Part shown: piece by piece, positions 3,614-42,091 of the stretch | How positions within the stretch are numbered: position 1 is the stretch's first letter | Layout: each line of letters starts with the position of its first letter | DNA from: Vasconcelosia minhoensis LEGE 07310 | Lineage (GTDB): Bacteria; Cyanobacteriota; Cyanobacteriia; Phormidesmidales; Phormidesmidaceae | DNA length: 48,586 nt | Direction: 5' to 3' | Assembly: GCF_015207255.1 (NCBI RefSeq) | Contig: NZ_JADEXG010000041.1 | Span: forward strand, 1-48,586 | Translations under genes and position numbers: made by a program | Notes under the pieces: model-generated | What the model was told of the DNA's origin: nothing | Databases searched by the model: none | Seen by the model: the letters and a program-made list of their open reading frames with translations, nothing else

Positions 3614-5068
3614 ATGTCTGCTCTGACTCGCCCCGCCTCCAAACGCACTTCTTCCCAACGCTCGTCTCGCCGTCCCCGCAAAGCCTACTGGTTTGAGCGG
3701 ATCATGGCCGTGATTGCGCTGGTAAACCTGATACTGGTGCTGTTTGACCTCAGCTATATCCGCTTTCGCGACCAGTACCTGCGCTTTTTTCCCGAGCTGA
3801 CCGTCTGGTATGGCGAGCAGCTGAAGGGAATTGAGCCAGAGCGCGCCACCGTTAGCTATTTGAGAACGGTGGACAGCCTGATTAGCCAGGTTGAAACCAG
3901 CGGCCTGGAGGCTAGTGAGAGTCAGGAAATCCTGGCCGACCTGCGGCAGCAGAGCGTCGAGATAATCGACGAAGATCCCTTTGCCTTGGCGAACAAGTCT
4001 GGGACGCTGGAGCAGATTAAGAACGAAATACGCGATCGCATCGGCGAGGAGTCGGCCAAGCAGTCGTTTCAGGATTTTTGGCGGGTGGCCTGGCTGCGGC
4101 GGCAGGGATTCACCGACGAGATTGGCTTTTTCAACGATGAAATTCGCCCCCTAATGGAGACCAACTACTACCGGGGGATCGATGAAACCGGCGGCCCAAT
4201 CGATCGGTTCTGGCTGATTGACATCTGGTTTATGGCCCTATTTGCCGGCGAGTTTGTCGCCCGTACCTATTTCCTTAGCCGCCGTCATGACAACGTCACC
4301 TGGTTCGACGCCATGCTCTGGCGGCTCTACGACGTACCGCTATTTCTGGGCTTTTGGCGCTGGCTGCGGGTGATTCCGGTCACCGTTCGGCTAAACCAGT
4401 CCAATCTGGTAGACATGGATCCGCTGCGCAATCGGCTCAACCGAATTTTTATTAGCCAGTTTGCGGTAGAGCTGACCGAAATTGTCATCCTGCGGGTGAT
4501 CGACCAGGCCCAAAACCTGGTGCGCAAAGGTGAGATCAGCGAATGGCTGCTCTCTGCCGCCGATCAGCGTCGCTACATCGATCTGAACGGCGTCGATGAG
4601 GTGCAAACCATCACCCAGCGAGTCAGCAGCGTCATTCTTTACCAGGTGCTGCCCCAGATTAAGCCCCAGCTTGACGCGCTGCTCCAGCACAGCGTCGCCA
4701 GCGCCCTCCACCAGGCCCCCGCCTATCAGGGACTGAAGCTGCTGCCAGGGGTAGCGCCTTTATCTGACCAGATTTCTCACCAGCTGGCGACCGAGCTGTC
4801 TAAAAGCCTGTACGAGGGTTTACAGAATGCTTTCTCAGATGAAACCGGTGCGGCTTTGACTGAGGAATTGGTCAGCCAGTTTAGCGCATCGCTGCGGACG
4901 GAAATAAGCAAGGACAATACTCTCAGCGAAATTCAGTCCCTCGTCAATGTTCTGCTTGAAGAAATCAAAATTAACTACGTCGAGCGGCTGTCGGCTGAGG
5001 ACTTTGAGCAGCTGGATGCCTCGCGATATCGGCTGTATGATGCGACACGGCAGGGGGAGAAGGGGTAG
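3614..5068 (+). CDS. Conserved membrane protein of unknown function (faintly channel-like)
   Basis: I do not recognise a named family. The 484-residue protein has a basic Ser/Arg-rich N-terminus (1-27) and a clear membrane segment (AVIALVNLILVLFDLSYI, about 34-51). A polar 140-residue region containing Glu/Arg helices follows, then a second segment near 198-218 (IDIWFMALFAGEFVARTYF). Next comes an amphipathic WFDAMLWRLYDVPLFLGFWRW stretch leading to LRVIPVTVRLNQ, whose spaced arginines recall the region around an S4 helix of voltage-gated channels. The remaining 230 residues are soluble and helical. Its TAG stop is the first unit of the heptamer repeat at 5066. It is probably a single-gene unit, ending at the terminator at 5298. 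Confidence 0.7.
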   Translation: MSALTRPASKRTSSQRSSRRPRKAYWFERIMAVIALVNLILVLFDLSYIRFRDQYLRFFPELTVWYGEQLKGIEPERATVSYLRTVDSLISQVETSGLEASESQEILADLRQQSVEIIDEDPFALANKSGTLEQIKNEIRDRIGEESAKQSFQDFWRVAWLRRQGFTDEIGFFNDEIRPLMETNYYRGIDETGGPIDRFWLIDIWFMALFAGEFVARTYFLSRRHDNVTWFDAMLWRLYDVPLFLGFWRWLRVIPVTVRLNQSNLVDMDPLRNRLNRIFISQFAVELTEIVILRVIDQAQNLVRKGEISEWLLSAADQRRYIDLNGVDEVQTITQRVSSVILYQVLPQIKPQLDALLQHSVASALHQAPAYQGLKLLPGVAPLSDQISHQLATELSKSLYEGLQNAFSDETGAALTEELVSQFSASLRTEISKDNTLSEIQSLVNVLLEEIKINYVERLSAEDFEQLDASRYRLYDATRQGEKG

Positions 5069-20002: not shown

Positions 20003-23000
20003 TTAGGATGCCGCTTCAGCTGTCGGCGCCAGCTGAGAGATTAGCGGCTCCGACAGCTGCTGATGTTTAGTTGAAAGAATCTGCTCTAGGTAAGCGCGCA
20101 GCCGCTTGCGCTGTTCCAGATTAGGAACATAGATCTGACCGTCCTGGCGCTCAAACAGCGGCGCTTCAGCGAAGGCCTGGTAGAGCCCTAGTTCTTGGGA
20201 CTGTGGGCTAATCAGTACCCGGTCAGCACCAGAGGGAATCAGTCCCGGCGGCAGATGGCCGCCCAGCAGCGCTAAAATATGTAGCTGGCAGACCTGCGTG
20301 TTGATACCGCGCTGTTCCAGCAGCTGCATAATCCTGCTGACCGGCTGAGGCTGTTGGGGAAAGCACCGCAGCAGCTCCATGAGCAGGAAATAGTCACTGT
20401 ACTGCTGGCGGTGAACGTCGAGCACCTGGGGATAGCGAGCCAGGTTGGCCAAGCCGTAGGCAACGCGGCTACAGCTGTTGGGGAAGCTGCCGCTGTAGGT
20501 ATCTTGAATGATGGTGGCATTGGGAAACTTCTGCCGTAGCCACCGCGCCAGCGCCGCCAGCGAGGCTGAACCACCGGTGCAGATCACCTGCTTAACCGCC
20601 TGGGCCGAAAGCCCCTGCTGGCTCAGCAGAATGTTCAAATGCCGCTTAATCCGCTGGATGTAAGGCAGGAAGATTCGGCTTTCCAACTCTCGCCGTTTAA
20701 CCAGCCAGCGATGATTGCCCAAATCAAGCTGGCATTGGGGCTGATGCTGGAGGACTAGCTTGAGATAGTGGGCTGCTTCCAGTAGGCTCTGGCCGAGGGG
20801 AGAGCTTTCCAACCGCTGCTGTAGCCGGTAGCGGTTAGCGATATCTGACTCGCCTGGCTGGGGTAACGTCAGCTGATCCAGCCCCAGACTCTGCCAGTCC
20901 TGATCGGCCCAGTCGGGCAGGTCGGCGTGCCAGTGCCAGTCCTGATTAGGGTCAGCTGAGGAAGGCGCTGGCACCAGGGACTGATTCGTTTCCGGCGGAT
21001 GCAGCAGCTGACAGATAATATCCTGGTCAAGGCTATTACCAGCGTAGGCAAAGCTACGCAGCGTAAAGGCGGAATAGCTCAGGTCGCTCAGCCGCTCGGG
21101 CAGATCGACCAGGGCAATCTCACTTAGCACAGCTCCAGCACTGATAATCGCCGTACCGCCTTGCCAGTCGCAGTTATAGAGACTGGGCTGGTGCGATGGG
21201 GTACCGGGGTCAGCCGCGCCGGTTTGCGGATCGGGCAGCCCCGACAGAACAGCCGCGATCGCGTCTTCCACAAAGAAAATCTGCTCTGTATGGTCCACCA
21301 GCCCAGCCGTCAGCAGCACCTCACGAATATTGAAGCTGTAGGTATCGGGCCAGTTAGTAGGATAGCCAACAATCGCCCCTTGCAGGGCGGCGATCACGGT
21401 CTGGAGCTGTTCCGCTTCTAACCCGACTGCTCCGCACTGGGGCTGATCGGACTGTCCCTGGTCTACCAGGCTTGACAGTAGTTTTTCCAGGGCCGACTGC
21501 ACCGCGACTAAGGGCAGCGATCGCTGCTCCGTCCATTGGATTAAGGGCTCATCAGCGTCTGCCGTCCGATGCGGTACGCCAACTTTGAGCAGCGGCTTCA
21601 GCTGTCGCACGGCGTAGCTGCCCTGCGTCGGGTCAGACGACTGGATCTGGCTGGCCTGATTCCAGGCCGCCGCTCCGACCGCTAAAACCTGGTGGTCTGC
21701 TGAGAGCCAGGCCACCGTCGGCAGTCGAAAGCGCTTCGTCGCCGGGTCGCCAGACTCATACCAGTAAAGCGGATAGACCTGACCGTCGGTCCGATTCATC
21801 AACACCGCCGATAGCCCCGTTGACCCCAGGTCAAGTCCCAGAAACCAGTCCGGTTCAGCACCGGGCGCGGCGGAATCAGGGGGGGAGATCGGCGATCGCT
21901 GCTCGGTGACCTCGGCAGCGGGCTCCGGCTGTTCTATCCTGTGCTCTGACTCTATCCTGGGCTCTGTCACGGGCGCAGCGGGGGCAATGGGCGATTCAAA
22001 GTCTGCCAGCATCTGGTCGAGGACATTCGACGAAGCCGTTTCTAACTCGGCCGCCCGGGCCGCCTCACGGTTTAGGGCCTCTAGCTGAGCGGCGAGATCC
22101 GTCGGCATCTCGCCCGCTAGCTCTGACTGGGTTAAATCATCGGCAGGGACCGGGGGCGGTGCTGACTCAGCCGACTCGCTATCGAATTCTTCGGGTTCAG
22201 GCGCATCCGGCACCATGGCCGACTCAGGCAGCTCTGGCGGGAAAGATTCCTCGAAGCCCATCTCAGCAAAGCTAGCCTGACCTTGGGTAACCGGCTCCAG
22301 GGCTGAGTCATCTAGCTCCAGACGTTCTGCGTCAGAATCTGAACAGGCTGACCAAGCGGCGTCATCCGCCAGCTCCAGGTCGAGGTCGAAATCATCATCT
22401 AGTTCTGTATCCAGATTGGTCGGTTTGGCGCTCAGCTCGGCCGACGCAGCGTCCATTGCAAAGATCTGATCGATGGGCTCATCCTCAAAATCGATATCGT
22501 CTTCGCTGACTTCAGAGACCAGATCCTCCAACGTTAGATCTTCCAGCGCTAGCGGTGCCTCATCCTCCAAAACCTCTGCTGAAGTTTGAACGGGCTCCGC
22601 TGGAGGCTCGGTAGCGGCCTCATCTTCCAGATCGAGGGCTAACGGGTCAGGTTCATCTATCTGGGTTGGCTCAGCAACCGGCTCAGCGATCGATTCCGGC
22701 TCGGGAATCGCGGCGGGGTTCTCATCGTCAGCGCGAAACTGATACCAGTCTGCCAGTGCGGCTGGATCGAGTTCTGGGTCAAGCTCGGGCGGCTGAACCG
22801 GGTCGAGGCTGAGTAAATCCTGATCGAGCTGACTGGATAAGTCCTGGCCAAATTCAAAATCGAGGCTATTTTCTTCATCCCCCCCAGCAGCTTCGGAGCC
22901 GAGTAGATCTTCACCCGCCGGAGCGGCAATATAGACGTCGTCCAGCGTTGCTTCATCCGCTTCGCTAACCGATTCAAAACTATCATTGACGCTAGAGAAT

Positions 23001-25024
23001 TCTACCGAGGCGGCCTGATTCGGATCGGGTAGCAGCTCAGATAGCGACTCTATTGTTTCAGCCGCCGGTTCTGGTGGCTCTGACGGCATCGTCAAATCGG
23101 GTCCAAAAAGGGCTTCCAGCGCATCTTCGTCGGCGTCCTCAGCAACCGGGTCGGGGCTGTCATCAGATTCAGGATTCAGCCAGTCGGGCGTCGGCGAGAC
23201 TGCCATCGCAGAGTCAGGCTCTAGACCAAACAGCCAGGTTTCGGCTTCAGCCAGATCGGAATCTGCGGTCTCTGGAGCAGTATCAGTAGCGATGTCGGAG
23301 GCTTCAGCCCCTCTCTGATTGGCATCATCGCTGCGCTCAACTTTAGGCACGGCCTGCTCAAATTCTACGGCTGCTTCCGGCTCGTCCCGTTTCAGCTGAG
23401 GGGCAATCCCTGCAGCAGCGGCCCGATCGTCAGCCAGACTATTCTCGGCCAAATCATCCGCGGCCTCAGCCTCAAACAGGTTTTGGTAGAGCGCATCTAG
23501 ATCTTCCCCTTCGGCGCCTTCGTCACTGTCCAGCTCACCGGTGATAGACCCCGGCAAATCGCTGCTGCTGGGCAGTTCGCTGTCAGCGTCATCAGCCAGA
23601 GAGGCATCGAGCAGCTCGAGTACGTCATCATCGGCATCCGCTGCCGGTGCTGTCGTCACCGGCGGTTCAGCGGGAGCTGCTGCCCCTGGAGCAGCGGCGG
23701 CTGGCTCAGACTGAGCCGCTGTCTCTTGATCAAATTCGAGAAAATCCAGATCGTCGTCGAGCGGATCGGGTGGGTCGAATCTCTCGTCAAAGCCGGCGTT
23801 GAGGTCCAGGTCAAGGATCTCAGCGTCGAGGTTATCAGACTCCGCCGCGGTTAGATTAAGGCCGGCATCCGGATCATCGTTCTCTAGCTGGACTGGCTCA
23901 TCCAGAGATTCATCAAAGTCGTCGTCAAGGTCAAAATCGAAGGTCTCCATTTCGATATCGTCATCGGCCAGATCAAGATCGGGGCCAATATCGAGGTCGG
24001 CGGCTAGGCTAGCCTCAGCAGCGCTGAGCGTATTGTCCGGATCAGGCGGCTCAGGCGCAGACGAGGTTTCATCTGGGATGTTGCCTGAGGCGGCGGGCGG
24101 CTGGAGCGGCCGGGAGCTGACGGTGACCGCATTAGCCGCTTCAGCGGTTTCAGCAGCCAGGTAAATTGAAGCTTCTTGACCCAGCTGCTGAGCCAGATAG
24201 CTGACCAGGGCGCGCACCACGCCTTCACCCTGACGACCCAGGCCGTGCATACTCTCCAACCCCTCAGCCAGAGACTCCTGATAGCTGCTAACGCTCTTTT
24301 GCAGCGCTTCAAACACGACTTGCAGGGTCGAATCTAGCTTGAGTAGGAGCTGGTCTGACTGAGCCTGGAGCAGCCGCAGCTGTTCTAAGCGCTGGGCCGG
24401 ATGCAGCCTTAGTTCAGCGGCGGTAAGCTCGGCTGCAGTCGCGTTGGGGGCCAGCAGTAAATCATCGGCTCGACCTGCCTCTAGCTTGGCCAAGGTCCCT
24501 GCGACTTGGGCCGACAGGTTTGCCTGCAGGCGGGCCATCAGAGATTCTAAGAAGCGGTTGAGCTGCTGCTGATTGACGCTTTCGCCCATGCCTGCCGTAG
24601 CACTGGGCTGGGTGCGCTGGTCAGCAAGCTGCCTGAGTTCGGCCTGAAGCGCATCTCGCTGCTGACTCAGAGACTCAATCTCCGATCGCAGCGGCTGTAG
24701 CGTATGCGTTTTCAGATGCTGCATCTCAACTAGCAGCGCTTGCAGCACATGCTCAGCCGTATCGCCGGGCGTCACCGCATTGGCACCTGCCGTCGAGGAT
24801 GGAGAAGCGATTTGACCAGTCGTGGGATTGATCGGCCCCCAGCCCCCCGGCGTCTCGAGGACCTGCTGAAGCGACTGTAGGTACTCTTTTGTATGGGCTA
24901 AAACCTCCTGCTGCTGCGTGGTCTCGCTGGACATTACCCACGGTAAGCGAGGATTGGCCTGGCTGCTTAAGGCCGCGTTGATTTCGGCAATCAGCGTCTG
25001 AATTTGATCCTTCTGAGAAGTCAC
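20003..25024 (-). CDS. Giant acidic protein with C-terminal Hsp70/actin-like ATPase domain
   Basis: A single 1673-codon frame from GTG 25024. Residues 1-270 are helical with coiled-coil character (LRSEIESLSQQRDALQAELR; LRLLQAQSDQLLLKLDSTL). Residues about 300-1040 are extremely acidic, with many Asp/Glu/Leu/Phe tracts such as FDFDLDDDFDESLDEP and few basic residues. From about 1056 comes an actin-fold ATPase: phosphate-1 loop WFLGLDLGSTGLSAVLMN, phosphate-2-like CDWQGGTAIISAG near 1282, and adenosine-motif-like VICTGGSASLAALARWL near 1478. A 170-residue helical C-terminus follows. The actin fold suggests ATP-dependent chaperone or scaffold behaviour. The acidic spacer suggests binding of basic partners or a flexible tether. 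It is divergent from crp. I know of no characterised homologue of this architecture. Confidence 0.8.
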   Translation of the reverse strand: MTSQKDQIQTLIAEINAALSSQANPRLPWVMSSETTQQQEVLAHTKEYLQSLQQVLETPGGWGPINPTTGQIASPSSTAGANAVTPGDTAEHVLQALLVEMQHLKTHTLQPLRSEIESLSQQRDALQAELRQLADQRTQPSATAGMGESVNQQQLNRFLESLMARLQANLSAQVAGTLAKLEAGRADDLLLAPNATAAELTAAELRLHPAQRLEQLRLLQAQSDQLLLKLDSTLQVVFEALQKSVSSYQESLAEGLESMHGLGRQGEGVVRALVSYLAQQLGQEASIYLAAETAEAANAVTVSSRPLQPPAASGNIPDETSSAPEPPDPDNTLSAAEASLAADLDIGPDLDLADDDIEMETFDFDLDDDFDESLDEPVQLENDDPDAGLNLTAAESDNLDAEILDLDLNAGFDERFDPPDPLDDDLDFLEFDQETAAQSEPAAAAPGAAAPAEPPVTTAPAADADDDVLELLDASLADDADSELPSSSDLPGSITGELDSDEGAEGEDLDALYQNLFEAEAADDLAENSLADDRAAAAGIAPQLKRDEPEAAVEFEQAVPKVERSDDANQRGAEASDIATDTAPETADSDLAEAETWLFGLEPDSAMAVSPTPDWLNPESDDSPDPVAEDADEDALEALFGPDLTMPSEPPEPAAETIESLSELLPDPNQAASVEFSSVNDSFESVSEADEATLDDVYIAAPAGEDLLGSEAAGGDEENSLDFEFGQDLSSQLDQDLLSLDPVQPPELDPELDPAALADWYQFRADDENPAAIPEPESIAEPVAEPTQIDEPDPLALDLEDEAATEPPAEPVQTSAEVLEDEAPLALEDLTLEDLVSEVSEDDIDFEDEPIDQIFAMDAASAELSAKPTNLDTELDDDFDLDLELADDAAWSACSDSDAERLELDDSALEPVTQGQASFAEMGFEESFPPELPESAMVPDAPEPEEFDSESAESAPPPVPADDLTQSELAGEMPTDLAAQLEALNREAARAAELETASSNVLDQMLADFESPIAPAAPVTEPRIESEHRIEQPEPAAEVTEQRSPISPPDSAAPGAEPDWFLGLDLGSTGLSAVLMNRTDGQVYPLYWYESGDPATKRFRLPTVAWLSADHQVLAVGAAAWNQASQIQSSDPTQGSYAVRQLKPLLKVGVPHRTADADEPLIQWTEQRSLPLVAVQSALEKLLSSLVDQGQSDQPQCGAVGLEAEQLQTVIAALQGAIVGYPTNWPDTYSFNIREVLLTAGLVDHTEQIFFVEDAIAAVLSGLPDPQTGAADPGTPSHQPSLYNCDWQGGTAIISAGAVLSEIALVDLPERLSDLSYSAFTLRSFAYAGNSLDQDIICQLLHPPETNQSLVPAPSSADPNQDWHWHADLPDWADQDWQSLGLDQLTLPQPGESDIANRYRLQQRLESSPLGQSLLEAAHYLKLVLQHQPQCQLDLGNHRWLVKRRELESRIFLPYIQRIKRHLNILLSQQGLSAQAVKQVICTGGSASLAALARWLRQKFPNATIIQDTYSGSFPNSCSRVAYGLANLARYPQVLDVHRQQYSDYFLLMELLRCFPQQPQPVSRIMQLLEQRGINTQVCQLHILALLGGHLPPGLIPSGADRVLISPQSQELGLYQAFAEAPLFERQDGQIYVPNLEQRKRLRAYLEQILSTKHQQLSEPLISQLAPTAEAAS

Positions 25025-25382
25025 AATAAATGCCCTTGATGCTAGCGATGGGAGTAAGCGGTCTTTTGTACTCTGGTTTGTACGCTGGGATTAATCTGGG
25101 GATTGTGCCTAAGATTGTCAATTTTCGATAGCCCGATAAGGATAGCTCAGATAACATGTTTGAAGAAAAAAGGCAATCTCCAGGTCGAATGCTCAAAGTT
25201 TAGGATAGGCAGGCCAAAAAGTCATAGTCTCGCGACAAGATTCCCGTTCTTTTCTGAATTTGACCGAATCTTAGACGAAATCACTCAGATGTAGGCAATT
25301 TTCCGAAAGTTCCCGACCTGGTGCGCTAGCGGTTATCTTGAGTGAGCAACCCAATGCGGCCCGATACAGCCTAGTATTGCTT
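25025..25382. other. Divergent intergenic region between the giant ORF and crp
   Basis: These 358 bp hold no gene I can support. A 12-bp element is tandemly duplicated (TTTGTACTCTGG 25065-25076, TTTGTACGCTGG 25077-25088), about 40-65 bp before the giant ORF. On the minus strand a TTGACA (complement of 25117-25122) is a plausible -35 for that ORF, but no good -10 is at the right distance. The region must carry promoters for both divergent genes. Confidence 0.4.
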
Positions 25383-26087
25383 ATGGACGTCCGTTACAGC
25401 TCTGGCGATCGCGCCGCCGAAAGCGACCTGATTCGCTCAGCTCCTTTCTTTGCTGAGCTGACGGATGAGGTAATCGATCGGGCCGTGGCTCAGGTCGTGA
25501 CTCTCCGCCATCCAGCCGATCAGGTGATTTTGCGCGAAAATGATTGGGGCAGCTCAGTTTATTTTATCCTGGACGGCTGGGTCAAAATTTGCACCTACAA
25601 CCTGGACGGCAAAGAAGTTACGCTCAACATTCTGGGTAAGGGCGAGCTGTTTGGTGAAATGGCCCCGCTCGACGAGGTGCCCCGCTCAACCGACGTGATT
25701 ACGCTGTCATCGACTGTAATCGGCAGCATGCCAGCCCGGAGCTTTGTGCAGCTGATGCAATCAGAGCCCCTAGCGGGCATTCGGTTGGCCAAGCTGATGG
25801 CTCGACGCCTGCGGCAGGTGAACCGGCGGCTGCGGCTGCGCGAATCAGACAGTCAGGCCCGGGTGGTCGATATTTTACTTTTTCTGGCCGAGGGTCAGGG
25901 GCGAGCAGCGCAGCGCGGAACTGAGATTCCTAACCTGCCCCATCGGGAACTGAGCAGCCTCAGCGGCCTAGCTCGCGAGACGGTCACCCGGGTGCTCAGC
26001 AAGCTCGAAAAAAAGGGCCTGATTGAGCGCGATCGCGCCGTCCTAAGAATTTTTGACCTCACCGCTTTAGAACGTTTTTTGATTTAG
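25383..26087 (+). CDS. Crp/Fnr family transcriptional regulator
   Basis: The 234-residue protein (from ATG 25383) has an N-terminal cyclic-nucleotide-binding fold. The phosphate-binding cassette is around FGEMAPLDEVPRSTDV, with the Glu and the Arg-Ser pair that contact cAMP in Crp. A long dimerisation helix follows (RLAKLMARRLRQVNRRLRLR). The C-terminal winged helix has recognition helix LSGLARETVTRVLSKLEKKG, containing the RETVTR pattern of Crp. cAMP response is plausible from these residues but unproven, and Fnr-type iron-sulfur cysteines are absent. An in-frame TTG at 25338 would add 15 residues; neither start has a clear ribosome binding site. It is probably cotranscribed with the DUF2232 and CobT-like genes, and its DNA targets are unknown. 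Confidence 0.9.
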   Translation: MDVRYSSGDRAAESDLIRSAPFFAELTDEVIDRAVAQVVTLRHPADQVILRENDWGSSVYFILDGWVKICTYNLDGKEVTLNILGKGELFGEMAPLDEVPRSTDVITLSSTVIGSMPARSFVQLMQSEPLAGIRLAKLMARRLRQVNRRLRLRESDSQARVVDILLFLAEGQGRAAQRGTEIPNLPHRELSSLSGLARETVTRVLSKLEKKGLIERDRAVLRIFDLTALERFLI

Positions 26088-26105: not shown

Positions 26106-26876
26106 ATGACTATTCCACCCGACAATCTGCCTGCCTCGGCCTCTGGTTCAGAAGTCGGTGACAGTGCGCCTTGGATTGAGGACGACCCGCCAGTCCCGGT
26201 CGCCAAAGTCGGTTCGCCTCGCCGCCCGGTGCGGACACATAAGGGACCGCTAGCGATGGTCGAAACGGCGTTTCTGGCCAGTGCGGCTAGCCTAATGTGG
26301 CTGGTCAACTTTTACTTTCCCCCCGGTCCGCTACTGCGTATCCTTTTCCCCCTTCCTATTGCGCTCGTCTATCTGCGCTGGAACCAGCGGGCGGCCTGGA
26401 TGTCGGCGCTGACCGCGGGACTGCTGCTGGCGATTTTGATGGGGCCGCCCCGCAGCCTTTTATTTGTCATGCCCTACGGGCTGCTAGGGGTGCAGCTGGG
26501 CTTTCTCTGGCGCCGTCGGGCGAGCTGGGCAATCTCGATTGGGCTAGGCGCACTGGTGGTTTCGCTAGGCGTCTTCTTTCGCATTTGGCTACTTTCGTTG
26601 ATGGCCGGAGAAGACCTCTGGGGCTATCTGACGGCACAGATTACGCAATTTCTAGCTTGGGGCACGAACCGGCTGGTGGATTGGGGGCTGGTGGGCCTAG
26701 GGGCGATCGGGCAGCCCAGCCTGACGGTGATTCAGGCACTGGCTGTGGTGTCGGTATTGCTGAGCAGCATCGTCTATCTATTTACGGTGCATCTGGCGGC
26801 CTGGCTGGTGCTGTCTCGCCTGGGTGAATCGATGCCTGGGCCGCCCCACTGGGTGCAGGCGATTCTCGATGAATGA
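26106..26876 (+). CDS. DUF2232 integral membrane protein
   Basis: The 256-residue protein begins 18 bp after crp. A 55-residue polar N-terminus rich in Pro, Ser and Arg leads into six or so membrane segments. The DUF2232 signature is ETAFLASAASLMWLVNFYFP, GPLLRILFPLPIALVYLRW and PRSLLFVMPYGLLGVQLGF. The family is widespread in cyanobacteria and Firmicutes and resembles the membrane S component of ECF-type transporters in hydropathy. No function is established. Its stop overlaps the next gene's start in ATGAATGA, indicating translational coupling to the CobT-like protein. An S-component-like role in cobamide-precursor or nicotinate uptake would fit this pairing, but that is a guess. Confidence 0.85.
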   Translation: MTIPPDNLPASASGSEVGDSAPWIEDDPPVPVAKVGSPRRPVRTHKGPLAMVETAFLASAASLMWLVNFYFPPGPLLRILFPLPIALVYLRWNQRAAWMSALTAGLLLAILMGPPRSLLFVMPYGLLGVQLGFLWRRRASWAISIGLGALVVSLGVFFRIWLLSLMAGEDLWGYLTAQITQFLAWGTNRLVDWGLVGLGAIGQPSLTVIQALAVVSVLLSSIVYLFTVHLAAWLVLSRLGESMPGPPHWVQAILDE

Positions 26877-28011
26877 GCCCGTGAGGCTAGCCCCACCGCT
26901 AGCGGCTGCGGTTAAGGTCTATACGGCTACCGTGACAGGTCAAACCTGGCTTCAGCACTATTGCGGCCTGCGACCGCTGTTTGCCTGCATTTTAGGATTT
27001 ACCGAGACCGGGCTGCTGCCCCAGATTTCCGCCGCCGGGGCGACGCCTGACCAGCGGCGCTATACCGCGATCGCGGATGCAGAGTTTCTCTACGACGGTG
27101 CCTATCCCGCTCCCCACCATGCCCTGCCGCCGCTGACGGCGGGCGCATCACCAGCGATGATCTCGCGGGCGGTGCTGACGGGTCAGGAAATTCCACTCTA
27201 TCTGTTTAATGCGGGTTTGCCGCAGCCGCCGGTCGTGCCCCACATCGACCTGGCCGGTCTGCCCGCCCGGTCGCTCCAAACCGGTCAGGCGCTGCCGCGC
27301 GATCGCGTTGAAGCGCTTTTTACCCAGGGCCTGCAATGGGGCGCGCTGCTCGCCCAGAAGAATCCCCACAGCTATCTGATCTTGGGCGAATGTGTAGTAG
27401 GTGGAACGACAACGGCTCAGGCCGTACTGACCGCGCTGGGCTATGCCGTCAGCGGCCGTATGGGCAGCAGTCATGCGGTATGCAATCACGCTCAGAAAGC
27501 AGCTCTGGTCACGGCGGGGCTGCGCCATTGGCCCGGCTATCGCCCGAATGTTCCCGCCGGGCAAGCGGCCCTAGCCGCGATCGCGGCAGTTGGCGACCCC
27601 ATGCAGGCAGTGGCGGCAGGGATGGCGATCGCGGCCAGTCGCTACGGCGGGGTGATGCTAGCGGGCGGCAGTCAGATGCTGGCCGTATTCGCGATCGCCC
27701 GGGCGATTGCCCAGGAACAGGCGCTGACCTGGCAGCCAGCGCAAATTGTGGTCGGCACCACCCGCTGGGTAGCGGAAGACCCCAGCAGTCAGGCAGTGGG
27801 GCTAGCTGAGACGATCGGTGACGTTCCTCTAATCGCCAGCCAGCTTAGCTTTGGCCCGTCTCGCTATCCGCAGCTGCGAGCCTATGAGCAGGGATTTGTA
27901 AAAGAAGGCGTTGGGGCAGGGGGCTGCGCGATCTCGGCCCAGCTCTATCGCGGCTGGACGCTGATGCAGCTATTAGCCGCCGTCGAAGCCGTGTTGGCCA
28001 GCTGTCGATGA
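26869..28011 (+). CDS. CobT-like nicotinate-nucleotide phosphoribosyltransferase family protein
   Basis: The 380-residue product has the features of the TIGR00303 branch of CobT relatives: ILGFTETGLLPQISAAGATP at the N-terminus, ILGECVVGGTTTAQAVLTAL near residue 170, GRMGSSHAVCNHAQK, then VMLAGGSQMLAVFAIARAI and VKEGVGAGGCAIS. CobT moves phosphoribose from nicotinate mononucleotide to the lower-ligand base of cobamides. Cyanobacteria generally make pseudocobalamin with adenine as lower ligand, so this protein's true acceptor is uncertain. I chose ATG 26869, which overlaps the DUF2232 stop by 8 nt. The longer frame to 26824 lies wholly within DUF2232. It shares an operon with DUF2232 and probably crp. 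Confidence 0.85.
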   Translation: MNEPVRLAPPLAAAVKVYTATVTGQTWLQHYCGLRPLFACILGFTETGLLPQISAAGATPDQRRYTAIADAEFLYDGAYPAPHHALPPLTAGASPAMISRAVLTGQEIPLYLFNAGLPQPPVVPHIDLAGLPARSLQTGQALPRDRVEALFTQGLQWGALLAQKNPHSYLILGECVVGGTTTAQAVLTALGYAVSGRMGSSHAVCNHAQKAALVTAGLRHWPGYRPNVPAGQAALAAIAAVGDPMQAVAAGMAIAASRYGGVMLAGGSQMLAVFAIARAIAQEQALTWQPAQIVVGTTRWVAEDPSSQAVGLAETIGDVPLIASQLSFGPSRYPQLRAYEQGFVKEGVGAGGCAISAQLYRGWTLMQLLAAVEAVLASCR

Positions 28012-28043: not shown

Positions 28044-28397
28044 CTAATAGCTGCGGTGGGTCAACAGCTGTTCTTCCAGGGTTGCAATCCGGTTATAGGC
28101 AGCGGTCAGCTGTGCCGTCAGGCGCTGAATCTGAATTTCGGGCGACAGAGTGGGATAGGGGCTGGTCTTATCTTCGGTTGGAGCATCGTCGAGCAGCACA
28201 TCCTTGTGTTCTAGGACCCGGTCTAGGCCCCGGCGAACGGCTAGGCCCTGGACACCGGCGTCAGCCGGGATGGGCTGAGCGACACTCGGGGGCAATCCCT
28301 CCAGGCCCGAAACCTTGTCATTCAGCTGCTGCATGAGGCTGTAAAGCGAATCGACCTTATCCGTCAGGTCGCGGACCTGGGCTTGCAAAATATCCAT
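28044..28397 (-). CDS. Small coiled-coil protein
   Basis: The 117-residue protein has two heptad-repeat helices. One is N-terminal (ILQAQVRDLTDKVDSLYSLM then QQLNDKVSGLEG, about 3-35) and one C-terminal (IQRLTAQLTAAYNRIATLEE, about 88-112). A Pro-rich, probably flexible middle with a conserved-looking VQGLAVRRGLDRVLEHKDVL separates them. It has no membrane segment or known catalytic motif. It resembles short cyanobacterial hypothetical proteins, but I cannot name a family. It converges on the CobT-like gene and is divergent from petE. Confidence 0.65.
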   Translation of the reverse strand: MDILQAQVRDLTDKVDSLYSLMQQLNDKVSGLEGLPPSVAQPIPADAGVQGLAVRRGLDRVLEHKDVLLDDAPTEDKTSPYPTLSPEIQIQRLTAQLTAAYNRIATLEEQLLTHRSY

Positions 28398-36543: not shown

Positions 36544-36581
36544 CCTTTGACTCTCCCCAGACCCACAGCAGTCAATTGCGG

Positions 36582-38306
36582 ATGAATTTAACATATCCAA
36601 AGGGCTTTTCCCATTGGGGTTGGCTGGCCCTCAGCCTGCTGGTGCCGCTGCATTACGGCTTCTGGTCATGGCGCTACGCCCACAGCGCGGCCTATATCGT
36701 GCAGGACGATGCCCGGCTGCATTTGATCTGGATGCAGCGGTGGGTTGACCCGCAGCTGTTTGCCAACGACGAGATCGCGGACTACTTCAGCACCATTCAG
36801 CTCCCCGGCTTCCAGGCCCTCTACGGCGGCTTGGCCCAGCTAGGCATCGGGCCGATGATGACTGCGAGCGTTTTACCGACGGTTTTAAGCCTGATTGCGA
36901 CGGTCTATCTGTTTCGGCTAGCGCAGCTGCTGCTGCCGCTGGCCGCCGCTGGCTTTTGGGTGACGCTGATCTTCAATCAAAATATTTGGATTAAAGACGA
37001 CCTGATCTCGGCTACGCCCCGGGCCTTTGTCTACCCGCTGTTTACCGCCTTTCTCTACTATCTGGCCCGGCGGGCCTACCTGGGCTGCGGCGTGACCCTA
37101 GTGCTCCAGGGGCTGGTGTATCCCCAGCTGCTGCTAGTTAGCGTCGGTACGCTTACCCTGCGGCTATGGCGCGGCGGACCGCGGCTCTCTCGCCGCTGGC
37201 AGGACTACGCCCTCTGGTTAACCGGCCTGGCTATGGCCGGGATAGTAGCGGTGGTCTTTTCTAGCGCTGTCTCGGCTCAGTATGGCTCCATCGCTACGGC
37301 GGCACAGATACGAGCCCTGCCCGAGTTTCAGCTGGGGGGACGGTCGGAGTATTTTGGCATTCCGGCCATCTACTTTTGGTTTAGAGGGGCGAGTGGCATG
37401 CGGATACCGCTATTTCCGCCGATTATTTTGACTGGCCTGGCGCTGCCGGTGCTCTTCTATTGCTGGCGACCAACCAAGCAAATCACGTCTCAGATTGCCC
37501 TACTGCGCGATGTATCGCTGGCTTCGATAGGACTTTTCGGCCTAGCCCATTTGACCTTCTCCCGGCTCTACCTGCCCAGCCGCTACAGCTACTACAGCGC
37601 CAGAGTGGTGATGGCGATCGCGACCGGCCTTTTGATAACGCTATTCTTCCAGCAGTTCTGGCGCTGGTGGCGGCGTTCTCGCGGCGTTCCGTGGATCAAA
37701 GGAGTAACTGCTGGGTTAGTGGGGTTGGCTTTGGTAATGGTAGTGACGGTGCCGCTGATTCCTTCGCTGTTCCTCACTGGCCATAACTGGGTGGCGGGCC
37801 AGTACCCTGGCCTGTATGAGTTTTTGGCGCGGCAGCCCAAGAGCAGCCTGGTGGCTTCCCTTAGCCGCGAGGCCGACAATCTGCCCGCCTTTGCCCAGCG
37901 GTCGGTACTATTTAGCCGCGAACTGGCGCTGCCCTACCATCCCAGCTTTTACGCCCCAATGCTGGCGCGCTTGCGAGATATTGTTGAGGCTCAATACAGT
38001 CCCCAGCTGTCGCAGGTCAGCGAGGTGATTAAAACTTACGGCGTCGATTTCTGGCTGCTCGGCCGTCAGTTTGACCAGGCAGGGTATCTGCGCGATCGCG
38101 ACTGGCTGATGCATACCAGCGTTCGGGCTGAGGTCGCTGAGCAAATTAACCAGCTTCAGGCCGGCCAGACGCCAGCGCTAGCTGGAATAATCGATGACTG
38201 CACCGTTTTTGAGGAGAAAGATCTGATCCTGCTGGATGCGACCTGCATTACTCGGGCGGCGCAGGCCGAAGGCGGATCTGTAATCCCTGCGCCAGACAAC
38301 AGTTGA
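36582..38306 (+). CDS. Large polytopic membrane protein, probable GT-C-type glycosyltransferase
   Basis: The 574-residue protein has about ten membrane segments. An early external loop carries paired acidic residues (VQDDARLHLIWMQRW, about residue 40), placed where GT-C enzymes have their catalytic Asp/Glu. A C-terminal soluble part of roughly 180 residues follows (about 390-574), with KTYGVDFWLLGRQFDQAGYL. It does not match a named family that I can recall. Neighbours support a glycan-assembly role: a GT2/methyltransferase pair lies divergent, and a GT39-type gene starts within its stop codon (TGATG). The start is ATG 36582; an in-frame TTG lies six bases upstream. Confidence 0.7.
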   Translation: MNLTYPKGFSHWGWLALSLLVPLHYGFWSWRYAHSAAYIVQDDARLHLIWMQRWVDPQLFANDEIADYFSTIQLPGFQALYGGLAQLGIGPMMTASVLPTVLSLIATVYLFRLAQLLLPLAAAGFWVTLIFNQNIWIKDDLISATPRAFVYPLFTAFLYYLARRAYLGCGVTLVLQGLVYPQLLLVSVGTLTLRLWRGGPRLSRRWQDYALWLTGLAMAGIVAVVFSSAVSAQYGSIATAAQIRALPEFQLGGRSEYFGIPAIYFWFRGASGMRIPLFPPIILTGLALPVLFYCWRPTKQITSQIALLRDVSLASIGLFGLAHLTFSRLYLPSRYSYYSARVVMAIATGLLITLFFQQFWRWWRRSRGVPWIKGVTAGLVGLALVMVVTVPLIPSLFLTGHNWVAGQYPGLYEFLARQPKSSLVASLSREADNLPAFAQRSVLFSRELALPYHPSFYAPMLARLRDIVEAQYSPQLSQVSEVIKTYGVDFWLLGRQFDQAGYLRDRDWLMHTSVRAEVAEQINQLQAGQTPALAGIIDDCTVFEEKDLILLDATCITRAAQAEGGSVIPAPDNS

Positions 38307-39994: not shown

Positions 39995-40636
39995 ATGGTC
40001 ACTTCTCCTCCGCCGCAAATTCTGACAGACACCTGGGTTAGCACCTCCTGGGATGAGTTCTTAGCCATTACAGATGCGCCTGTTTACAAAGATGGCAGAG
40101 CTTACTTTGATGCTGGCAACATGAGGATTGAAATGGCTGCATTGGGAGCGGGTCACGGGCGGCAAAATTCGGTTGTGCTCAAGGTCGTTGATCTCTATGC
40201 AGCGCTGCACCAGCTGAGGATAGTTGGGTTTATTAACTGTAGTTTTCGCAAAGCCGGAGAGCAAGAATGCCAGCCAGACGCTGCCTATTACGTGGGAGAA
40301 AACTTTCAGCTCCCCCCTCAGAACAATCAGCCGATTAATATTGAGCTTTTTGGCCCGCCGACTCTGGTGATTGAGATTGGAGCTAGCTCGCTCAGCGACG
40401 ATTTAGGTCCCAAACGCCTGCTTTACGAACGGTTGGGGATAGCAGAATATTGGGTCATCGACGTCAAAGCGCGGCGGGCGATCGCGTTCTCCGTCGCAGC
40501 CGGGCGCAGTGGACAAATCCAAATCTCTGAAGCATTGCCAGGTCTGGAGCTGAGCCGAGTCGAAACGGCCCTGAGGCGTTCTGTCACCGAAGATGATGGC
40601 GCGATTACCCGCTGGCTCATGCAGACTTTGGGATAA
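39995..40636 (+). CDS. Uma2 family endonuclease-like protein (intact)
   Basis: The 213-residue protein has the Uma2 PD-(D/E)XK-like core: ECQPDAAYYV near residue 95, PPTLVIEIGASSLSDDLGPK near 125-145, then RLLYERLGIAEYWVIDVKAR. The family is greatly expanded in cyanobacteria. Its members are predicted restriction-type nucleases of unknown target, often carried on mobile or unstable loci. Length and motif order suggest a complete, possibly active copy, although the usual second catalytic acid in the ExL strand is read here as EIG. The next frame, a damaged Uma2 gene, starts 4 bp after its stop, so this may be a decaying tandem pair. Confidence 0.83.
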   Translation: MVTSPPPQILTDTWVSTSWDEFLAITDAPVYKDGRAYFDAGNMRIEMAALGAGHGRQNSVVLKVVDLYAALHQLRIVGFINCSFRKAGEQECQPDAAYYVGENFQLPPQNNQPINIELFGPPTLVIEIGASSLSDDLGPKRLLYERLGIAEYWVIDVKARRAIAFSVAAGRSGQIQISEALPGLELSRVETALRRSVTEDDGAITRWLMQTLG

Positions 40637-40640
40637 GCCT

Positions 40641-40985
40641 ATGATTGCCAAAAGCCATGCCTACTTTACGCCTGAAGACTATTTAGAAATTGAGCGCATT
40701 AGCCCGATCAAGCACGAATATCTCCAGGGACAGATGGTCGCCATGGCGGGCGCAACCAAAACGCATGTAATCATCACTGGCAATCTGTCGGCGCTACTGG
40801 TCAATCATCTCCGGGGTAAGGCTTGCATCGCCTATGCCATGGCTATGAAAGTGCGACTGCCGGAGCTAGGGATTTCAGACGCGCTAGGGCTTCAGAGCAG
40901 AGTTTACAAAATATTCGCTACAGGCTTCTTCAAATTCTCAAGAAAGAGGTTGACCGTCGTCTGGCTACTTCTCTGCATGAGTTAG
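40641..40985 (+). pseudogene. Truncated Uma2 gene, 5' part only
   Basis: From ATG 40641 the product reads as a typical Uma2 N-terminal half (MIAKSHAYFTPEDYLEIERI, then SPIKHEYLQGQMVAMAGATK) up to VRLPELG at about 40871. A normal protein would go on to the catalytic PDV and E-x-K strands. Here the homology stops abruptly and the frame continues 37 codons through unrelated sequence to TAG 40983-40985. The catalytic half is absent, so it cannot be an active nuclease. The junction abuts the NACHT-protein remnant, read in another frame. Confidence 0.75.
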
Positions 40986-41544
40986 TCAAACTAGATCTAT
41001 ATATGGAAGACCAGGGGTTGATTTTCGGGATAAGGAGTGAACAGATTCAACCTGCAGAAAAGCTGGGATGGTCATTTAATCGTGGGATGTGCAGTGGGTT
41101 GCTTAGCTGACTGATGACTGGGCTGTTTTTCGGACTGATTGGTGGGCTAATTGGCGGGTTGGATACTGAGCAGATCAAATTTAAAGAAATTGCTAATCAA
41201 GGAGTTTGGAAGTCGCTACACAATGGGTTAAAGTGTGGGCTGATTGGCGGGCTGATTGGCGGGCTGCTAGCCGGTCTGAGTAATGAACCGTTTTTTAATC
41301 TGAGTTTCGTGCTGAATTACGGTCTGTTTTTTGGGATAATGGGGGGCTGATTGGTGGGCTAACGGAAGTTATTAAACACCTCATTCTACGCATCTTTTTG
41401 ACTAAGAATGGCTACGCACCTTGGAATTATGCACTTTTTCTTGAACACGCTGCAAAGCACCGCTTTATTCAAAAAACAGGTGGCCGCTATCGTTCCATCC
41501 ATGATTTGCTGCGAAAGCACTTTGCAGCAATGCCACTTGAGTAG
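40889..41544 (+). pseudogene. Remnant of a NACHT-type NTPase with GLIGGL membrane repeats
   Basis: The frame at 40889-41107 reads SLQNIRYRLLQILKKEVDRR and then LATSLHELVKLDLYMEDQG, like the segment preceding the NACHT domain in cyanobacterial NTPases. It then jumps straight to the membrane tail typical of their C-termini. The tail continues in the same frame after TGA 41108-41110 (GLFFGLIGGLIGGLDTEQI; GLKCGLIGGLIGGLLAGL). It ends at TGA 41348 after a G-run (41341-41346) and resumes in another frame from 41347 (NGYAPWNYALFLEHAA, then RYRSIHDLLRKHFAAMPLE) to TAG 41542-41544. The P-loop NTPase core is missing entirely. The gene has therefore suffered an internal deletion, a stop and a frameshift. 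Confidence 0.7.
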
Positions 41545-41602
41545 CTATAGTTTCAGTAGGCAGCCAGGCGAAATCTCTTTCTTCCTATTTCTTGCTAAAA
41601 AG

Positions 41603-42091
41603 TTAGCTTTCCTGAGCCAGCTGTAAGATCTGGCGGTAGACTGCTCGTCTCATCCAAAAACCTGCCTGGCCAACTAGCCGATCCATTACTGGTTGAACTG
41701 CTGGGATAATACCCTGGGCTTTAGCTGCTAATAAAATTCCTAAAATGCCAATGACTTTAAGCCCTAAGCCAGAAGCTATTTGATAGCCTTTGCGTTCGTC
41801 TATCACCAATAACTGCGCCTTCAGCTCAAGTGCGAGCACAATAGCTTCTGCCTCGCCAATATCCAGGTCAAACAAAAGGCTTTCTAACGGCTCAGTATTC
41901 AAAACTGGCTGAGTTTTGATCCAATCATGAGACTGAACTTCAGCGGCACCCGGCACCTGCTCTGGTATATCTACCAATTCTTTGAAAACGGCTTCAGGAA
42001 TAACGATCTCCCCGTACAGCGCCTGCAAAAGGTTCAAGTATTCAATCGCCGCTAGGTTTGTGATTGCCGAAGTGTCGCAAACAACAATCAC
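41603..42091 (-). CDS. DUF3368 PIN-like toxin
   Basis: The 162-residue protein is a DUF3368 member, a PIN-like nuclease family found as toxin partner of UPF0175. The conserved acids are visible: Asp6 in VVCDTSAITNL, Glu36/Glu40 in PEAVFKELV, the DIGEAEAIVLALEL block (about 76-89) and LLVIDERKGYQIA. It probably cleaves RNA. The start is GTG 42091, overlapping the antitoxin stop as GTGA, the usual coupling for toxin-antitoxin pairs. Base composition is lower in GC than the housekeeping genes around it. Confidence 0.88.
   Translation of the reverse strand: MIVVCDTSAITNLAAIEYLNLLQALYGEIVIPEAVFKELVDIPEQVPGAAEVQSHDWIKTQPVLNTEPLESLLFDLDIGEAEAIVLALELKAQLLVIDERKGYQIASGLGLKVIGILGILLAAKAQGIIPAVQPVMDRLVGQAGFWMRRAVYRQILQLAQES

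Follow-up and report, generated by a model that had tools for sequence, protein, structure and literature searches.

The window, meaning the whole stretch of DNA analysed (48,586 nucleotides from Vasconcelosia minhoensis LEGE 07310, contig NZ_JADEXG010000041.1), carries on its reverse strand a long gene with a divergent Crp/Fnr-family regulator gene and further conserved neighbours beside it (Table 1). Homologues of the encoded protein share a (V/M)TSQ-type beginning, and in 18 rows of the 25-row alignment of N-terminal regions (A2) the mechanically called open reading frame begins at the shared start or at most three residues away from it. This alignment holds 25 out of 28 N-terminal matches, since two EamA paralogues and L056 were left out, and seven of its rows were trimmed to the shared start. 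The chain opens with a coil domain at its N-terminus, followed by a long acidic arm that carries a single conserved motif; an Hsp70-type head comes next, and a conserved domain makes up the C-terminal end. The initial annotation of this DNA had proposed a coiled coil, an acidic spacer and an Hsp70-type head in a single reading frame, with the nucleotide fold standing at the end of a long arm. This layout is borne out by the frame itself, the heptads, the composition and the predicted fold, and the earlier description largely holds, except for the place of the phosphate-2 loop and the purely helical nature of the tail, both of which are corrected below.

When the 1673-residue protein was compared with family collections, nothing scored above a Pfam cut-off, and NCBIfam returned a weak match to HscA (E 0.00096; 17.7 bits, where the cut-off is 708.55), as well as another match at E 0.039. 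Sequence search with the protein found no solved structure at E 1. A reading as a defence system was rejected, because PADLOC matched neither the whole protein nor the head, and the coil only weakly.

Table 1. Coordinates of the features in the window, with the basis of each assignment
Feature	Residues	Coordinates	Strand	Basis or detail
Entire gene (1673 aa from a GTG start, with stop codon)		20003..25024	-	Start common to homologues
Conserved N-terminal domain	1-310	24095..25024	-	A2, 25 sequences, columns 39% identical on average
Coiled coil with clear heptads	88-140	24605..24763	-	Heptad score reached by 0/500 shuffles
Stretch shared with EamA-type transporter paralogues	~88-290	24155..24763	-	A2 profile positions 72-280 in L148
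Acidic, probably disordered arm	313-1055	21860..24088	-	218 D/E, 15 K/R of 743
Docking-like motif 1, DALYQNLF	510-517	23474..23497	-	Pattern in 70/89 spacers
Possible motif 2, LDQMLADF	1002-1009	21998..22021	-	20/89 vs shuffled mean 0.83, max 3; weaker
Hsp70-type nucleotide-binding head	1053-1529	20438..21868	-	AlphaFold model, Foldseek, VIA, hhalign
Phosphate-1 motif LDLGSTG (Asp1065 = DnaK D8)	1064-1070	21815..21835	-	D in 97/98 rows
Lys1143, DnaK K70 equivalent	1143	21596..21598	-	K in 92/99 rows; placed by global hhalign
Glu1253, DnaK E171 equivalent	1253	21266..21268	-	E 90, D 5 of 100 rows
DWQGGT, upstream of the true phosphate-2 loop	1286-1291	21152..21169	-	Profile alignments
Ser1295, at the phosphate-2 Asp place (DnaK D194)	1295	21140..21142	-	S 53, N 35, D 6 of 100 rows; profile alignments
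Adenosine-motif Gly-Gly	1484-1485	20570..20575	-	G in 102/102 and 94/102
C-terminal domain, winged-helix-like on weak evidence	1530-1673	20006..20437	-	Model pLDDT 76.6; VIA best Z 7.5
Crp/Fnr-family regulator, divergent neighbour		25338..26087	+	Pfam cNMP_binding, HTH_Crp_2
DUF2232 membrane protein, conserved neighbour		26106..26876	+	Neighbour-gene profiles
CobT-like phosphoribosyltransferase, conserved neighbour		26824..28011	+	Neighbour-gene profiles
Small 117-aa protein C4, conserved neighbour		28044..28397	-	No Pfam match over cut-off

Within the conserved N-terminal domain the heptad signal is confined to one stretch; the same test fails for residues 1-60 (score reached by 97 of 500 shuffles), 145-190 (344 of 500) and 205-295 (72 of 500). 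It is not wholly specific, as a stretch of the head (residues 1050-1300) gave a score reached by just 4 of 500 shuffles. The coil profile also matches a second protein in many of the same genomes, for instance the 605-residue product of L148 in the genome of this strain (E 6e-19). Seven such coil-bearing second proteins were fetched and five of them scanned, and in all five the Pfam EamA domain scored above its cut-off. By profile comparison, the same coil module is therefore found both on a membrane transporter and on the 1673-residue protein. EamA-type transporters whose N-terminal coil is a homologue of the one described here are encoded at L148:8253-10070 (G000:C43, own genome), L047:17115-18965 and L055:17787-19661, as well as at L156 and L164.

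The spacer that follows, annotated earlier as about 750 acidic residues, corresponds to the 743-residue arm of Table 1, which is 29% acidic and 2% basic and has a mean hydropathy of 0.441 against a disorder boundary of 0.511. Its length varies from 0 to 1673 residues across proteins that carry coil and head in one chain. A short motif of the type [DE]-x-[LF]-Y-x-[SN]-L-F-G (motif 1) lies a median of 117 residues past the coil domain. In its relaxed form the pattern occurs in 58 of 70 fused proteins and in 12 of 19 spacers that are not fused to a head, while 100 shuffling rounds gave a mean of 0.49 and a maximum of 2; nearly all spacers having the motif (68 of 70) hold it as a single copy. Twelve fused proteins lack the pattern, among them those of Phormidesmis (L084, L105) and Leptothoe (L072), and the motif is therefore not required in all members. 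The same relaxed pattern was not found in any of the four coil genes from genomes without a head gene, which represent three genera only; one of them, L160, carries the near variant DEHVYESLL. The idea that motif 1 is common to other proteins was tried with the DNA pattern DxLYxxLFG, which misses the copy in the window because that copy has no Gly, and was rejected: eight genomes gave four matches in four genomes, all lying in this gene, and the backward control gave three matches in three genomes. No other carrier of motif 1 was found in this search, in which the count by itself is not distinct from the backward control.

The head and the C-terminal domain were modelled together. Residues 1053-1673 were aligned with 28 relatives (A1, from which L059, another Hsp70-like protein, and L060, with no match in the search, were left out), and AlphaFold gave a mean pLDDT of 87.9 and a pTM of 0.90, and the predicted model has the actin/Hsp70-like fold that the initial annotation had expected. 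All 50 Foldseek matches listed, with a best E of 1.7e-14 and 12-16% identity, are of Hsp70 type by title, although one title names just a ciliary complex. Among the 50 VIA matches listed, with Z between 20.4 and 22.6 and 15-19% identity, 49 are of Hsp70 type; the remaining one, which scores as high as many of the Hsp70 rows (Z 20.6, 312 residues), is a model of the MreB-type actin Mbl. When alignments from close genomes were used, hhalign of the head against four families gave E 2.1e-15 for an Hsp70-like family of 533 residues, 1.4e-5 for MreB, 3.4e-5 for DnaK and 0.11 for PilM; these values shift with the rows used, that for DnaK being 7.8e-9 with four proteins of this strain's own genome vs 3.4e-5 with up to 25 rows close to L141. 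Among the four families compared, the nearest kin of the head on profile evidence is thus the stand-alone 533-residue cyanobacterial family. At the level of Pfam, the protein scores 9.1 bits for HSP70, under the cut-off of 20.6, and 20 of 29 members match this family (best E 6.4e-4). The score for PilM_2 is 12.1 bits, under the cut-off of 27, and an identity as PilM was rejected, since the Pfam matches are weak (20 of 29 members, best E 0.0011) and the hhalign comparison with PilM of close genomes gave the poor value mentioned above.

To read the nucleotide site we used columns of 102 distinct proteins, reduced from 111 matches, with rows that have a gap in a column set aside (L059 and L060 are gaps in the phosphate-2 column). 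The columns are referred, by number and role, to the DnaK residues D8, K70, E171, D194, T199, K270 and R271. The phosphate-1 and adenosine motifs, which looked intact in the initial annotation, are kept in most rows, and homologues keep most of the phosphate-binding residues. An altered phosphate-2 loop had also been recognised correctly, but it had been placed at DWQGGT; profile alignments to DnaK and to the 533-residue family put it at IISAGAVLSEI, a placement that coincides with a predicted strand-turn-strand in the head model. At this place the metal-binding Asp of Hsp70 is replaced by Ser or Asn in 88 of 100 rows, and only five rows have Thr at the place of T199, so that the head family departs from the Hsp70 phosphate-2 motif D-L-G-G-G-T. 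In the adenine pocket, Lys is found at the place of K270 in 96 of 101 rows, and Leu or Ile at that of R271 in 91 of 102. The state without the Asp is probably the derived one, because the nearest kin, the 533-residue family, keeps an intact DFGGGT loop. Mutants of Hsc70 at the phosphate-2 Asp hydrolyse ATP more slowly, while binding is not abolished. Judged from this change of the Asp, the ATPase activity of the head may be weak.

The protein could form actin-like cytoskeletal filaments, with the head polymerising and the coil and arm serving as a brush or a membrane anchor. The superfamily of the fold, the Mbl model standing level with Hsp70 rows, and the like scores of the MreB and DnaK profiles speak for this, as does the fact that cyanobacteria own an actin-like morphology protein, FcmB, according to the part of the source available (PMC12645912). 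The nearest profile, however, is that of an Hsp70-like family, the phosphate-2 Asp is lost, and an acidic arm of this size would be expected to repel its neighbours in a dense filament; we regard filament formation as unlikely. Still less likely is a true but divergent Hsp70 chaperone, in which the head would use ATP on clients held by the arm or by the C-terminal domain. Hsp70 proteins do dominate the structure matches and the equivalents of K70 and E171 are kept, but the substitutions at the places of D194, T199 and R271 and a score under the Pfam HSP70 cut-off argue the other way, and so does the region behind the head. There the predicted models contain just short strands, with neither a beta-sandwich of the Hsp70 substrate-binding type nor a lid, and the earlier statement that a DnaK-type substrate-binding domain is missing agrees with them.

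What does follow the head is a conserved end, which had been described as 170 helical residues. A conserved end is indeed present, but it measures 144 residues and is not only helical: the model of it folded alone has three helices and some further short ones, after which come a beta hairpin and one more helix, and the domain has a conserved core of its own in an alignment of 27 sequences (A4, with L057 and L058 left out). Foldseek found no match to this model at E 0.001. Winged-helix proteins, including some that bind plasmid centromeres, make up almost all of the VIA rows listed for it, and the best Z is below the trust level of the aligner. These rows are what favours a DNA-linked regulator or partition factor, in which a C-terminal winged helix would bind DNA and the head would act as a nucleotide sensor. 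Apart from the low Z and the empty Foldseek search, an acidic arm of 743 residues would be expected to repel DNA, and the compact members of the family (L149, L150, L158) stop short of this domain, with head matches that run only to profile positions 454-470 of 612. We consider a role on DNA improbable, more so than a chaperone.

The family is cyanobacterial. It was detected in 50 of the 59 genomes searched, that of the present strain included, and those relatives that have names are Leptolyngbyaceae and other cyanobacteria. Across 292 genomes of the phylum the coil profile matched 74 and the head profile 104, of which 66 matched at E 1e-40 or below, five at about 1e-19 to 1e-16 and 33 at 2.4e-11 or above; those of the 33 weakest matches with a listed place look like the other Hsp70-like family. 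Among the best 80 of 252 confirmed loci, which lean to close relatives and in which some genomes are counted twice, 60 are fused, four are split and 16 show a head only. Thirteen of these head-only loci start at a contig end and the other three lie within 760 bases of one. In further relatives, nine coil-plus-arm genes have a head gene directly after them, with the arm (13-31% D/E) on the coil gene, and a wider comparison of loci showed more such side-by-side pairs. Coil and head travel together, fused or side by side.

Some of the split forms need care. All four in the best 80 (L073, L102, L107, L115), together with L046, are overlapping pairs of reading frames and may be frameshifts in draft genomes, whereas L047 in G040 and L154 in G150 are pairs with a clear gap in single-contig genomes; in L047 the acidic arm sits on the coil gene. 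The possible frameshifts could suggest that unrelated genes were fused by sequencing error, or that the protein is a decaying pseudo-ATPase without function, but such a relic or artefact is very improbable given that the fused form prevails among the best 80 of 252 loci, in drafts and near-complete records alike, and that head, coil and neighbours are all conserved. The compact forms L149, L150 and L158 keep head and coil and have little or no arm. Four genomes of three genera (L160, L161, L162, L273) have a coil gene beside the same crp gene and no head gene at that place; genome-wide, the head profile gave only E 7.5e-8 to 6.5e-5 in them, the level of the other Hsp70-like family. The phrase "tethered ATPase scaffold" in the initial annotation was right about a long arm in front of the head, but the tether reading is too simple: because some genomes have the coil and the arm but no head, and others place the arm on a separate coil gene, the arm is not merely a tether. 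In a tree of 86 of the 111 rows (66 labelled; Nostocales thinned), which was built quickly and has long branches and many open forks, the fused, split and compact states need 11 changes, an upper reading because the 17 split rows include doubtful overlapping pairs, and gain is not separable from loss.

Taken together, we favour, at a probability of about 40%, the reading that the protein is a cyanobacterial nucleotide-switched scaffold or switch of the Hsp70/actin superfamily, adaptor-like in its action and distinct from a folding chaperone. In such a scheme the coil would oligomerise and, by pairing with its relative on an EamA-type transporter, may gain contact with the membrane. The head would bind ATP, hydrolyse it slowly or not at all, and open and close with the nucleotide. 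The single motif of the arm could be a docking place for the head (in cis if fused, in trans if split) or for a partner that accompanies the head, and the nucleotide state would thereby control the building of the coil-arm assembly, making the protein a nucleotide-gated adaptor. More tentative, and rather doubtful at this level of detail, is the proposal of a cyanobacterial class of the Hsp70 superfamily that has abandoned client folding, in which a head with an altered loop binds the arm motif, within one chain or between chains, and gates a coil scaffold joined to a transporter by the shared coil.

Several known systems have features in common with this putative nucleotide-switched scaffold. 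With the nucleotide-binding domain of Hsp70/DnaK (PF00012) the head would share, as judged from model and alignment, the fold, the phosphate-1 and adenosine motifs and the catalytic Lys and Glu; unlike DnaK, the head family has Ser or Asn in the phosphate-2 loop of most members, no substrate-binding domain in the models, and a coil and an arm in front. The 533-residue family, the best of the four profile matches, differs in its intact loop and in starting with the nucleotide domain, which leaves no room for a coil or an arm. It is a separate gene, found with a best E of 1.8e-74 or better in all 24 genomes searched; in the genome of this strain it lies at L145:1027-2619 (G000:C89), and slr0086 of Synechocystis is presumably a member. 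Further likenesses come from the literature. In Nostoc, a DnaK1-DnaJ3-GrpE system acts on type IV pili, a cyanobacterial Hsp70 serving regulation and not only general folding; as far as the available part of the source goes, this is a DnaK with a J-protein and an exchange factor, and it is likened to the head by description only (PMC9239167). The recently described actin-like morphology system FcmB/FcmC resembles our case, in the portion of the source seen, as an actin-superfamily protein that works with a second protein encoded beside it; FcmB is ParM-like according to its authors and is set beside the head by description only (PMC12645912). No description of the coil-arm-head family was found in the open-access PMC literature. 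The fold is known; for the architecture, for the altered loop and for the motif, the open-access literature searched offered no precedent.

Since the protein is conserved in many cyanobacteria and occurs naturally in fused, split, compact and head-less forms, these forms offer a way to study how an Hsp70-type nucleotide switch functions when it has no substrate-binding domain, and which roles beyond tethering a long disordered arm can have. The coil shared with EamA transporters is a direct lead to a membrane partner.

Divergence from a Crp regulator, noted in the initial annotation, is a general property of the family: a survey of homologues found a Crp-type gene divergent within 1.5 kb at 88 of 102 loci whose flanks were long enough, a set that counts some genomes twice and leaves out 22 loci without room. 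At most loci where the contig extends far enough, crp is followed by the genes for the DUF2232 protein and the CobT-like enzyme and by the small gene, again with some genomes counted twice; the neighbour profiles left out the crp paralogue L043 and the DUF2232 rows of L056 and L058. CRP sites of the E. coli type (TGTGA-N6-TCACA) between the gene and crp were considered and rejected, as they occur at two mismatches in 17 of 80 unique intergenic stretches vs a shuffled mean of 24.1 and are not enriched, so the case for regulation by the neighbouring Crp comes from gene order. The small protein C4 gives short coil-like Pfam matches below their cut-offs. Elsewhere in the window, two reading frames on the forward strand have no Pfam match at E 0.01, one of 484 residues at 3614-5068 and one of 576 residues at 36576-38306, the latter directly before a PMT_2 glycosyltransferase-like gene. 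The block at 40001-42000 has a G+C content of 0.486; the remaining 2-kb blocks of the window range from 0.541 to 0.625.
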